Shown one piece after another: positions 1-16,952 of a stretch of DNA of 64,000 nucleotides (the stretch's first letter is position 1; each line of letters starts with the position of its first letter). The stretch is taken from the NCBI RefSeq assembly GCF_023921125.1, contig NZ_CP099466.1, positions 1 through 64,000 on the forward strand, in the 5' to 3' direction. Below the pieces are notes generated by a model. That model was not told the origin of the DNA and did not search any database. It saw only the letters and a program-made list of their open reading frames with translations. The DNA is from Arthrobacter caoxuetaonis. Lineage in GTDB: Bacteria > Actinomycetota > Actinomycetes > Actinomycetales > Micrococcaceae. A program made the position numbers and the translations under genes.

Positions 1-329
1 ATGAATGAGTGCAGATAGCAGACACAAAGGACTACTCAACGTTAGGTGAGACCCTGAATCCAGTCAAACCGGGCTTCCACGGCCTGTTTGTACAGAACTG
101 CCCACACCTGTGGACAACTGCCCTGGCCGCGGTCCTGCCGTGGCATTGTGAGTGATGTCCCAAGTGGCACGGGGGCGCAGGAATCCAGCTACCGAGAGCC
201 GAAATGATGATCTAGGCTTGGCGCTGGGTGTTTTATCCACGGGTGTGCATAACTCTGTGGATGATCCTCCGGAATCCAGGCCTGGTTTCCGGTTTCTTAG
301 ATCGCCATGCGGCGTCACGAGAGGTTTTT
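1..329. promoter_or_regulatory. dnaA upstream region with DnaA boxes
   Basis: No convincing gene lies in these 329 bases. The stretch holds near-consensus DnaA boxes, each one mismatch from TTATCCACA or its complement: TGTGGACAA at 109-117, TTATCCACG at 233-241, TGTGCATAA at 244-252 and TGTGGATGA at 256-264. Three of them sit within 32 bases, about 70 bases before the dnaA start. This fits the known autoregulation of dnaA by DnaA and possibly an upstream part of the origin. No clear -35/-10 pair was identified. Confidence 0.6.
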
Positions 330-14574: not shown

Positions 14575-15117
14575 ATGACTGCTATTCCTACAGCACAAGC
14601 AACCGTCCACACCTCCAAGGGCGATATCCGCATCAACCTCTTCGGCAACCACGCCCCGAAGACGGTCCGGAACTTCGTCGGCCTTGCCACAGGTGAGATC
14701 GAATGGACCGATCCGGCGACCGGCGAGAAGACCAGCCGCCCGCTCTATGACGGCACGATCTTCCACCGCATCATCAAGGACTTCATGATCCAGGGCGGCG
14801 ATCCCCTGGGCCGCGGCACCGGCGGACCGGGTTACCAGTTCGACGACGAAATCAGCCCCGACCTGGACTTCACCGCTCCGTACAAGCTGGCCATGGCCAA
14901 CGCAGGCATCCAGATGGGCCGCGGAACGAACGGATCGCAGTTCTTCATCACCTCTGTGCCGACCACTTGGCTGCAGGGCAAGCACACCATCTTCGGCGAG
15001 GTGGCAGACGACGAGTCCAAGGCCGTCGTTGACGCGCTGAATGCTGTCGATACCGACATGCGGGACAAGCCGACCGAAGACATCGTCATCAACAACATCA
15101 CGGTCGAGCAGCTCTAA
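14575..15117 (+). CDS. ppiA: Peptidyl-prolyl cis-trans isomerase (cyclophilin)
   Basis: A 180-residue single-domain cyclophilin that speeds up cis-trans isomerisation of proline peptide bonds. The conserved core FHRIIKDFMIQGGD (63-76), the NGSQFFIT motif and GKHTIFGEV are all present, with Arg65 as the catalytic arginine. There is no signal peptide or membrane anchor, so it is cytosolic. In Micrococcaceae this gene lies beside the rhomboid protease gene as here, with a hairpin between the two. Confidence 0.93.
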   Translation: MTAIPTAQATVHTSKGDIRINLFGNHAPKTVRNFVGLATGEIEWTDPATGEKTSRPLYDGTIFHRIIKDFMIQGGDPLGRGTGGPGYQFDDEISPDLDFTAPYKLAMANAGIQMGRGTNGSQFFITSVPTTWLQGKHTIFGEVADDESKAVVDALNAVDTDMRDKPTEDIVINNITVEQL

Positions 15118-15162: not shown

Positions 15163-15191
15163 CCATAAGCACTCATCGGAGCCGAACACCA

Positions 15192-16034
15192 ATGTCCTAC
15201 GGAGTACCGGCCGGAGAGCCGGCCCATGATGTACCCGTCTGTCCGCGGCACCCCGACCGGGTCAGTTACATCCGCTGCCAGCGCTGCGGCAGGCCGGCGT
15301 GCCCGGAATGCCAGCACAGCGCGCCCGTGGGCATCCAATGCGCGGACTGTTTCCAGGAGAGCCGGGCCGGCACGCCTGCCTACCGGACGTCATACGGCGG
15401 CGCGGTCCGTTCCGGTAAGCCTGTAGTCACGATCACCCTCATGGCCCTGTGTGCCGCCGCCTATGTCCTGCAGTGGATTGCACCGGGTTTCACCGAACTC
15501 TTCTGGTTTGCTCCCGTCTACACGGACATCGAGCCTTGGCGGCTGCTGACAGCTGCTTTCCTCCACTCCCCCGGGTTCATCTTCCACATCGCGTTCAACC
15601 TCTATGCCCTCTGGCTTCTGGGAAGGTCACTTGAGCCGCTGCTTGGCAGGCTGCGCTTTACGCTGCTGTACCTGATCTCCGCGCTGGGCGGCTCAGTCGG
15701 CGTAGTCCTCCTGGCGCCGGCCTTCCAGGCAGTTGTGGGTGCATCCGGCGCAATCTTCGGCCTCTTTGGTGCTCTCTTCGTGATCCAGCGCCAACGCGGA
15801 GGCGAAGTCAAAGCCCTGCTGATCCTGATTGGCATCAACCTGGTGCTGGGCTTTGTCTATCCCAACATTTCCTGGCAGGCACACCTGGGCGGGATTCTCA
15901 CCGGTGCTGCCTGTGGGGCTGTCCTCGCCTACGCCCCCAAGGGTCCCCGCCGGGCGTTGGTTCAGTTTGGCGGCTTGGGCGTTATCGCCCTCATCCTGAC
16001 AGCAGTGGCCCTGCTGTGGACGCCTAACTTCTAG
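15192..16034 (+). CDS. Rhomboid family intramembrane serine protease
   Basis: A 280-residue membrane protease with an N-terminal cysteine-rich module (about 12-55: HPDRVSYIRCQRCGRP, then CPECQ and CADC), which looks like a small zinc-binding B-box-type fold. Six or seven membrane segments follow. The catalytic serine is in GASGAIFG (Ser185) and its histidine partner in QAHLGG (His231). Rhomboids cleave membrane proteins inside the bilayer; the substrate here is unknown. The cysteine module probably faces the cytosol and may recruit partners (inference). The gene is followed by a terminator and then the second DnaA-box cluster. Confidence 0.9.
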   Translation: MSYGVPAGEPAHDVPVCPRHPDRVSYIRCQRCGRPACPECQHSAPVGIQCADCFQESRAGTPAYRTSYGGAVRSGKPVVTITLMALCAAAYVLQWIAPGFTELFWFAPVYTDIEPWRLLTAAFLHSPGFIFHIAFNLYALWLLGRSLEPLLGRLRFTLLYLISALGGSVGVVLLAPAFQAVVGASGAIFGLFGALFVIQRQRGGEVKALLILIGINLVLGFVYPNISWQAHLGGILTGAACGAVLAYAPKGPRRALVQFGGLGVIALILTAVALLWTPNF

Positions 16035-16047
16035 GTTCCAGTTTGGC

Positions 16048-16080
16048 AGCGGCCCCCGGATTTCCCGGGGGCCGCTTTTC
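16048..16080 (+). terminator. Rho-independent terminator after the rhomboid gene
   Basis: AGCGGCCCCCGG at 16048-16059 pairs with CCGGGGGCCGCT at 16065-16076 and is followed by TTTT. It lies 13 bases after the stop codon. Confidence 0.85.
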
Positions 16081-16640
16081 CTTTAAACGGAGCGGGGCCC
16101 GGACCGGATCGCACACGGCCCTGGTACTGAACGGCGACACTCTCCACAGGGCATAGCAGTCTTATCCACAGAGATACCCACATTGTTAATAACTTACAGG
16201 CGTGTAACTCATGGTCCTGCGGGGGTGACCTGGCTATCTGACGCAGCTCCCGGAACCCTACCTCAGGGTTTTCCACAGAGCATTCGTGAAGTTGTGCACA
16301 GGCGGTGCCCAAAGCCGTTGAAGAGTTATCCAGTGTTGTCTCCGAGTTACACACATGTAATTCCACAGGTGTGGATAACTCGGATCCCTAGGCTGGCGCG
16401 GTTTGGCTCCTGAAGGGGCCGAAAGTTCTCCACAGTTGTGGACAACTCTGTGCACATGTTGGGTATAGGGTCCCGGTTGTTAGCTCCCGGTTATCCCCAG
16501 CTTATCCACGTTGAACTGTGGATAACCCCCTTCGGGGGACACCTTTCTCTGTGCAGGGTGCCCCTGCGTTCTTGAACAGGTTATCCACGGCTGTGGATAA
16601 GTGTCTGTGGATAAGTAGGGTGCCTGTGGGTAAGCCTGTT
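16081..16640. other. Dense DnaA-box cluster outside oriC
   Basis: This non-coding stretch between the rhomboid and crgA genes holds five perfect DnaA boxes: TTATCCACA at 16162-16170, and TGTGGATAA at 16370-16378, 16517-16525, 16592-16600 and 16606-16614. Seven one-mismatch boxes lie at 16269, 16426, 16437, 16491, 16502, 16581 and 16625, with further weaker ones (for example 16292 and 16326). That is 12 good boxes in about 470 bases, more than in the dnaA-dnaN gap. Several are paired in opposite orientation a few bases apart (16502/16517, 16581/16592). No gene is visible. A DnaA-titration or origin-regulating locus is the most natural reading, comparable in idea to datA of E. coli or the DnaA-box clusters of Streptomyces. 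That role is inference. Confidence 0.8.
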
Positions 16641-16647
16641 TAAAACA

Positions 16648-16680
16648 AAACTCCCGGTGTGGCAGGCACACCGGGAGTTT
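16648..16680. terminator. Terminator hairpin downstream of crgA
   Basis: AAACTCCCGGTGTG (16648-16661) pairs with CACACCGGGAGTTT (16667-16680). On the minus strand it follows the crgA stop at 16695, and a U-rich/A-rich flank exists on both sides. Confidence 0.75.
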
Positions 16681-16694
16681 GAACCAGTCGCAGG

Positions 16695-16952
16695 TCAGCG
16701 CCACCGGGTCGTCATCAGGAAGCCCACGATCGCAACGCCGAAGCCAACCAGGATGTTACCGCCACCGAGGGCCGGAATCGGGTACACACCCTGGGAAATG
16801 TAAAACACGATGATCCAGAGCAATCCGATGATCATGAGGCCGAACATTACCGGCTTGTACCAAACGGGATTCGGCTTGGGGGCTGCCTTTCCCTTGGCTG
16901 CAGCGGGCGCCGCTGCGGCTGCTGGCTTCTTGCGGGACTTTGACTCGGGCAC
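16695..16952 (-). CDS. crgA: Cell division protein CrgA
   Basis: An 85-residue protein with a Lys/Ala/Pro-rich cytosolic N-terminus, the NPVWYKP motif before the first membrane segment (about 34-53), a short loop with YPIPALGG, and a second membrane segment (64-80) ending in TTRWR. Size, two-helix layout and motifs match CrgA, a divisome protein of actinobacteria that binds FtsZ, FtsQ and FtsI and times septum formation. It is encoded opposite to the sortase gene. It lies close to the pknB/pbpA operon, as in other actinobacteria. Confidence 0.92.
   Translation of the reverse strand: MPESKSRKKPAAAAAPAAAKGKAAPKPNPVWYKPVMFGLMIIGLLWIIVFYISQGVYPIPALGGGNILVGFGVAIVGFLMTTRWR

Follow-up and report, generated by a model that had tools for sequence, protein, structure and literature searches.

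The window, by which we mean the whole 64,000-nucleotide stretch of Arthrobacter caoxuetaonis DNA that was analysed, carries a ppi gene for a cyclophilin-type peptidyl-prolyl isomerase (positions 14575–15117, plus strand; Pfam PF00160), which served as the anchor of the locus. A rhomboid protease gene (15192–16034, plus strand; PF01694) and crgA (16695–16952, minus strand; PF06781) lie beyond it, and a sortase gene is also found in this neighbourhood. The gap between the rhomboid gene and crgA is convergent, with the former ending at 16034 and the latter, which points toward the gap, ending at 16695. A scan with TTATCCACA that allowed up to one mismatch identifies 12 DnaA boxes between 16162 and 16633, comprising five perfect boxes that start at 16162, 16370, 16517, 16592 and 16606 and seven one-mismatch boxes that start at 16269, 16426, 16437, 16491, 16502, 16581 and 16625. 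The preliminary description had reported the same numbers, had drawn the limits of the cluster at 16141–16633, which is correct to about 20 bases, and had rightly singled out 16502/16517 and 16581/16592 as pairs of opposite orientation. Its statement that no gene explains this stretch also stands; the cluster falls between the ends of the rhomboid and crgA genes.

Each side of the cluster carries a terminator-like hairpin, one located 3′ of the rhomboid gene (16048–16076, plus strand; 12 pairs, 11 of them G-C) and one located 3′ of crgA (16648–16680, minus strand; 14 pairs, 8 of them G-C). The number of hairpins proves little, because two in the interval 15900–16800 is not significantly different from the 1.0 (sd 1.0) found in shuffled sequences. 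Nevertheless, both occupy the places where terminators are expected, and they could act as such. No sigma-70-like promoter was found in 15900–16800, and the 64-kb window holds no parS site at up to three mismatches.

The density of boxes in this gap is exceptional both within the window and across the genome. In total, the window contains 30 matches to TTATCCACA at one mismatch or fewer, whereas 100 shuffles that preserve its dinucleotides average 4.12 matches (sd 2.00) and reach 10 at most. The stronger motif TTATCCACR occurs 38 times genome-wide, and a comparison of all 38 sites places seven in the cluster, two in the dnaA–dnaN gap and one at the start of dnaA. Outside the cluster, this motif never occurs more than twice per 500 bp. 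Thus, the cluster is the densest TTATCCACR group of the genome, and the suggestion that other intergenic regions be compared for density has turned up no strong-box group that equals it. For the broader pattern TTRTCCACR, 100 of 133 genomic matches were listed, reaching 2.93 Mb, and for the one-mismatch genome scan 100 of 322 were listed.

The new point about this cluster is that its boxes follow a grammar. Specifically, two tandem boxes spaced 12–13 bp apart face an inverted third box at 22–24 bp, an arrangement we call a triad. Ten of the 12 boxes fall within five such triads, which were found with a rule somewhat wider than the strict one given below. Triad 1 (16162–16192, plus strand; offsets 12/22) is formed by boxes at 16162 (plus, TTATCCACA), 16174 (plus, ATACCCACA) and 16184 (minus, TTATTAACA). 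Triad 2 (16347–16378, plus strand; 12/23) is formed by boxes at 16347 and 16359 on the plus strand and a perfect box at 16370 on the minus strand. Triad 3 (16426–16457) is a mirror version, with a plus-strand box at 16426 and minus-strand boxes at 16437 and 16449, and reads 12/23 on the minus strand. Triad 4 (16491–16525, plus strand; 11/26) includes boxes at 16491 (plus), 16502 (plus) and 16517 (minus), and triad 5 (16581–16614, minus strand; 14/25) is again a mirror, with boxes at 16581 (plus), 16592 (minus) and 16606 (minus). The sole other triad that the same wider rule finds in the 64 kb lies in the dnaA 5′ region (233–264, minus strand), with boxes at 233, 244 and 256.

To establish these spacings, 114 regions 3′ of rhomboid genes were collected from 77 of 80 named loci (the other three lack a rhomboid match) and from 37 family segments, yielding 112 distinct sequences in which some species are present twice. 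When boxes with up to two mismatches are paired, tandem pairs peak at 12 bp (80 of the 114 regions), and facing pairs occur at 10 bp in 63 regions, 11 bp in 64, 22 bp in 44 and 23 bp in 70. Divergent pairs are present in at most nine regions at any offset. A strict rule was then set (tandem offset 12–13, inverted offset 22–24, each box at least 7 of 9 and a sum of at least 22), and 85 of the 114 regions contain a triad that satisfies it. When the boxes of every region were re-placed at random, 200 rounds yielded a triad in a mean of 0.7 and a maximum of three regions, and all-tandem triads with the same spacings occur in only two of the 114. The strict-rule rate is partly fitted, because the rule was chosen after the offset histogram of the same regions had been seen. 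A looser rule, under which boxes could score as low as 6 of 9 at offsets of 11–13 and 21–26 with the sum still at least 22, passes 99 of the 114 regions and none in five Markov-shuffled sets, but it also passes 14 of 23 dnaA–dnaN gaps, and it was dropped owing to this poor separation.

Strict triads are present in all 18 regions from the window's genus and in 67 of the 96 regions from elsewhere. With family labels taken from record titles, the tally is 15 of 17 named loci and 35 of 37 family segments for Micrococcaceae, 18 of 23 for Microbacteriaceae, 6 of 9 for other Micrococcales and 4 of 6 for the remaining groups. Strict triads are rarer in Streptomyces (4 of 12), Actinomycetaceae (2 of 5), Streptosporangiaceae (1 of 4) and Bifidobacterium (0 of 1), although the 12 Streptomyces regions still average 2.0 perfect boxes. 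When triads are counted up to three per region, many Micrococcaceae exhibit three, and other groups usually exhibit one.

All 29 genus genomes examined, the window's own included, carry three to six perfect and one to seven one-mismatch boxes in the gap, and the genus alignment reveals near-invariant blocks at three box groups, with triads 1 and 2 both near-invariant. These loci were located by tblastn; for one (L014), the rhomboid end falls outside the locus and 1,500 bp were taken instead. The alignment across Arthrobacter that had been proposed as a check therefore favours the cluster, since its boxes are conserved in 29 of 29 genomes. In a survey of one genome each from 31 other genera of Micrococcaceae, 21 segments contain the rhomboid gene, and all 21 have a box group at its 3′ end or within about 0.7 kb past it. 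The weakest of these (L110) has one perfect and four one-mismatch boxes that extend into the rhomboid gene. The ten segments without a rhomboid gene, two of which are cut by contig ends, are uninformative on the site, although L092 among them carries boxes grouped at another place.

Among the 21 rhomboid-bearing segments, 13 place crgA 2.5–9.1 kb beyond. Because the boxes stay at the rhomboid gene when crgA is distant, the cluster, which trails the rhomboid 3′ end family-wide, is a rhomboid-linked element, and its assignment to crgA was rejected. As judged from the named loci, the element is also present, generally in a form with fewer boxes, in Microbacteriaceae, Streptomyces, Brevibacterium, Actinomycetaceae and others. 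The preliminary description had framed the site as one of Micrococcaceae; it is indeed conserved there, but that frame is too narrow for an element that is widespread in the class.

Several rearrangements were observed around the site. Extra sequence places crgA 4–9 kb from the rhomboid gene in seven genera (L088, L096, L099, L101, L103, L106 and L109), and the box group in these same genera still lies within about 0.7 kb of the rhomboid gene. Insertions may thus be frequent on the side of the element that faces crgA. In two Nesterenkonia loci (L142 and L151), crgA and the sortase gene are inverted and reside on the other side of ppi, with the box cluster still beside the rhomboid gene. In two further genomes (G128 and G138), crgA is not near the rhomboid gene.

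We also used a sequence model of the triad (R1), built from 50 triads that include triad 1 of the window, to search genomes. In the window's own genome, triad 1, which is itself a training row, ranks first (E of 2.6e-6), followed by a second triad of the cluster, the dnaA 5′ region and a third triad of the cluster; the dnaA–dnaN gap and then a box group before dnaB rank lower. Under stricter filters, 192 of 197 genomes of the class have a model match at an E value of 0.05 or better. The best match is listed for 124 of these 192, and 100 of the 124, the window's own genome included, also have a listed ppi position. The best match lies at a median distance of 1.6 kb (1.0–6.7 kb) 3′ of the ppi start in 78 of these 100 checkable genomes, for which the chance expectation, estimated from genome size, would be well under 1 percent. 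The other 22 do not fit this pattern, with 13 matches on another contig and nine elsewhere on the same contig. This genome-wide search is more independent than the strict-rule count, even though the training triads of the model come from this site in related genomes.

The canonical oriC candidate of this chromosome is the dnaA–dnaN gap (1749–2300), which contains two perfect and four one-mismatch boxes, as previously counted, and a conserved AT-rich stretch. The two sites share the same boxes, and both have an AT-rich motif of the GTTAWTAAC type after a box pair. In contrast, the dnaA–dnaN gap has the longer AT-rich stretch, and an inverted triad is absent from all 28 such gaps tested (0 of 15 in the genus and 0 of 13 in other genera). 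The 13 gaps from other genera contain 4–13 boxes of at least 7 of 9, yet none forms an inverted triad. The lowest GC content of any 40-mer is 0.35 in the cluster, where only the short GTTAWTAAC-type motif is present, compared with 0.30 in the dnaA–dnaN gap. All-tandem triads are found in the dnaA–dnaN gaps of the genus (15 of 15, the window plus 14 relatives) and in only 1 of 13 gaps from other genera. The idea that gap and element carry opposite triad types in general was thus dropped, as the all-tandem type characterises the genus and is rare outside it.

The best explanation for these observations is that the cluster is neither a gene nor a promoter, and that the main origin lies elsewhere. 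On balance, the box content, grammar and conservation point to an oriC-proximal DnaA-binding element for replication control, which most likely would sequester DnaA after initiation. The cluster probably controls the timing of chromosome copying rather than serving as a second origin. The proposal in the preliminary description that the cluster could titrate DnaA is among the best readings.

If this model is correct, DnaA would bind the boxes as triads, with two molecules side by side on the tandem boxes and a third molecule facing them. Because the element lies about 14 kb from oriC, it would be copied very soon after initiation. Such early copying would double the local count of strong DnaA sites, and the doubled element would then draw DnaA away from oriC or alter its nucleotide state. 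Withdrawal of DnaA would help to prevent an immediate second initiation. We infer DnaA binding, sequestration and the sign of the effect from sequence. The position beside oriC favours a negative role, whereas the facing boxes resemble those of DnaA-reactivating sequences (DARS) and would favour a positive one. A different function, for example in the organisation of the chromosome, could also account for the conservation of the boxes.

To our knowledge, the control that restricts initiation to once per cycle is poorly known in actinobacteria. Smulczyk-Krawczyszyn et al. (2006; J. Bacteriol. 188:6184) reportedly described the clusters H69, H24 and D78 near oriC in Streptomyces coelicolor, and this study is not known to include a triad grammar or class-wide conservation. 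Presumably, crgA of this species (SCO3854) lies on cosmid H69, and cluster H69 may therefore correspond to the present element. By title and abstract, we found no DnaA-box paper involving crgA or rhomboid that concerns this site, of which the 2006 Streptomyces study may cover part. Further searches returned no paper on a DnaA-reactivating sequence in Actinobacteria and, for DnaA ChIP-seq together with Streptomyces, no actinobacterial DnaA map by title or abstract. An element that is short, has a fixed grammar, keeps its position across much of the class and is, in this form, absent from the tested dnaA–dnaN gaps is a direct target for experiments.

Known systems offer partial parallels for a sequestering role. 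The datA core of Escherichia coli is intergenic and located downstream of genes, and transcription through datA has been suggested to be inhibitory, according to the datA passages of PMC5742627, in which the minimal core consists of boxes 7, 2 and 3 plus an IHF site. The present cluster is likewise an intergenic group of DnaA boxes downstream of genes, here two converging ones, and it would double early after initiation. It differs in that a triad is lacking from the glyY–queG part of datA and in that datA, as placed in an excerpt of PMC4451416, lies more than 450 kb from oriC compared with about 14 kb here. A chromosomal cluster of DnaA boxes in S. coelicolor represses untimely initiation and is treated as a datA-like analogue (work cited in a passage of PMC5742627). 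Bacillus subtilis has DnaA-box clusters in eight intergenic regions, as given in parts of PMC5742627 and PMC4451416, and these resemble the present cluster in being intergenic.

A different outcome would follow if the element were an actinobacterial DARS with the triad as its reactivating core, a reading we regard as possible but rather unlikely. Under this scheme, ADP-bound DnaA would bind, the molecule on the inverted box would meet its neighbour head to head, ADP would leave, and the re-formed ATP-DnaA would promote the next initiation. In the DARS sections of PMC5742627, the cores of DARS1 and DARS2 each consist of three DnaA boxes whose spacing is identical at the two sites, with box I opposite II and III, and head-to-head contact is the prominent feature. 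We measured both sites in E. coli K-12 at the positions given there (0.81 and 2.97 Mb; PMC5742627). Their boxes both lie at 0/12/26 with the third inverted, and thus their order, orientation and tandem spacing are shared with the actinobacterial triads. When applied to E. coli, the wide triad rule picks exactly one triad in each of the DARS1 and DARS2 gaps, and it picks none in the gap at oriC or in the glyY–queG part of datA. Triad 4 of the window, at 0/11/26, comes nearest to the E. coli 12/26 arrangement. In box layout, the element resembles DARS1 and DARS2 in having three boxes with one opposite two, as in the strict triads of the 85 regions and the five triads of the window, and in being intergenic.

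The same comparison reveals where the resemblance ends. The facing boxes are 10–11 bp apart in most regions compared with 14 in both E. coli cores, and the window has five triads that sit next to oriC. Although the tandem offset of 12–13 agrees, the inverted offset is mostly 22–24 rather than the constant 26, and only triad 4 is close. Because the core spacing differs in this way, we do not file the element as a DARS, although by analogy it may work like one. The triad model gives 12.5 bits for DARS1, compared with 12.2 for oriC, 11.9 for the dnaA promoter region and 11.7 for datA, and it gives 10.9 bits for DARS2, where it finds only the tandem pair. The model is therefore no evidence for DARS as such, since DARS1 scores hardly above these other sites, and an initial impression that DARS1 is its top E. 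coli site lost weight when oriC, datA and dnaA were included as controls.

Protein comparisons add to this picture. An E. coli Hda query matches DnaA alone in the window's genome at E values up to 1. An E. coli type of RIDA–DARS cycle would thus be incomplete here. The DnaA protein of the window's genome, when aligned, retains the E. coli positions Asp269, Arg285 and Leu290; Asp269 is linked to the action of DARS1 and Leu290 to that of DARS2 in the relevant passages of PMC5742627. We offer only as a tentative and rather unlikely proposal that Actinomycetia possess a DARS-like DnaA-resetting triad site beside the origin, after ppi and the rhomboid gene and before crgA, with five copies here. 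If true, the site would be a DNA-only switch that acts on DnaA through its nucleotide state or its oligomeric form, in a genome with no recognisable Hda. More generally, if the element is DARS-like or datA-like, DNA-encoded control of DnaA would extend beyond the beta- and gamma-proteobacteria, for which DARS is named in the passages concerned of PMC5742627 and PMC4451416.

Sequestration near a single origin should also be weighed against the prospect that replication starts at the cluster, either alone or as half of an origin in two parts, with the dnaA–dnaN gap as a helper or relic. We consider this improbable. The cumulative GC skew of the window is lowest at about 16–19 kb, the genes from dnaN to the rhomboid gene exhibit a third-position skew resembling that of lagging-strand genes, and triad 1 includes an AT-rich palindrome of the GTTAWTAAC type, as does the dnaA–dnaN gap. 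This strand skew in the genus would also be compatible with an origin close to the cluster. However, the skew of this middle block looks like codon bias, because fourfold sites are C-rich in genes of both strands, with the minus-strand part of that evidence coming from one or two open reading frames of the dnaN–rhomboid block. Among 13 genomes with flanks, four have their skew minimum no more than about 1 kb from the rhomboid end (G006, G024, G061 and G052), whereas the minimum is within 1.2 kb of dnaN in three (G124, G089 and G080) and at neither place in six, and fourfold-site skew has the opposite sign in one genome (G113). Because the skew is mixed in this way, a second origin was demoted to a minor rival.

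The architecture of the two box groups also weighs against a joint origin. Bipartite origins, as defined in the portion of PMC4285127 that treats them, span up to about 2 kb with one spacer gene, which is usually dnaA, whereas the groups here have about 14 kb, with roughly a dozen genes, between them. The bipartite origin suggested in the preliminary description thus draws weak support from the turn in the window's skew, but it is opposed by this separation, by the conserved boxes and longer conserved AT-rich stretch that the dnaA–dnaN gap keeps for itself, and by the discordant skews. As a separate observation, the dnaN–rhomboid block of the 2.2-Mb Micrococcaceae genome with the opposite sign (L090/G113) has fourfold-site skews of +0.25 for GC and +0.62 for TA, unlike both of its flanks.

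Finally, the notion that the boxes time transcription of crgA, the rhomboid gene or the sortase gene with replication appears very improbable: the cluster does adjoin a cell-division gene, and DnaA can serve as a transcription factor (as noted in part of PMC8203912), but a DnaA-controlled promoter would have its boxes around or before the start of a gene, whereas the gap receives the 3′ ends of both neighbours, has a terminator-like hairpin on each side and shows no sigma-70-like promoter in 15900–16800, and crgA is 2.5–9 kb away from the cluster in 13 of the 21 informative genera. Promoter control of crgA and the sortase gene, as the preliminary description had also proposed, was accordingly rejected on gene orientation.

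Two other groups of DnaA boxes were observed in this genome. In the dnaA 5′ region, positions 109–264 of the window hold four one-mismatch boxes and the facing triad at 233–264. These boxes would lie in the dnaA leader, because alignment with E. coli DnaA suggests that the gene probably starts downstream of the GTG called at 228, and they likely serve dnaA autoregulation. The second group, at G000:C1:3510222–3510457 (about 15172–15407 of locus L032), comprises six DnaA boxes, two of them perfect, that sit between the gene for ribosomal protein L9 and the start of dnaB; on a circular contig, this place would be about 45 kb to the left of dnaA. This group is a candidate for a DnaA-controlled dnaB promoter or for another DnaA-binding site.
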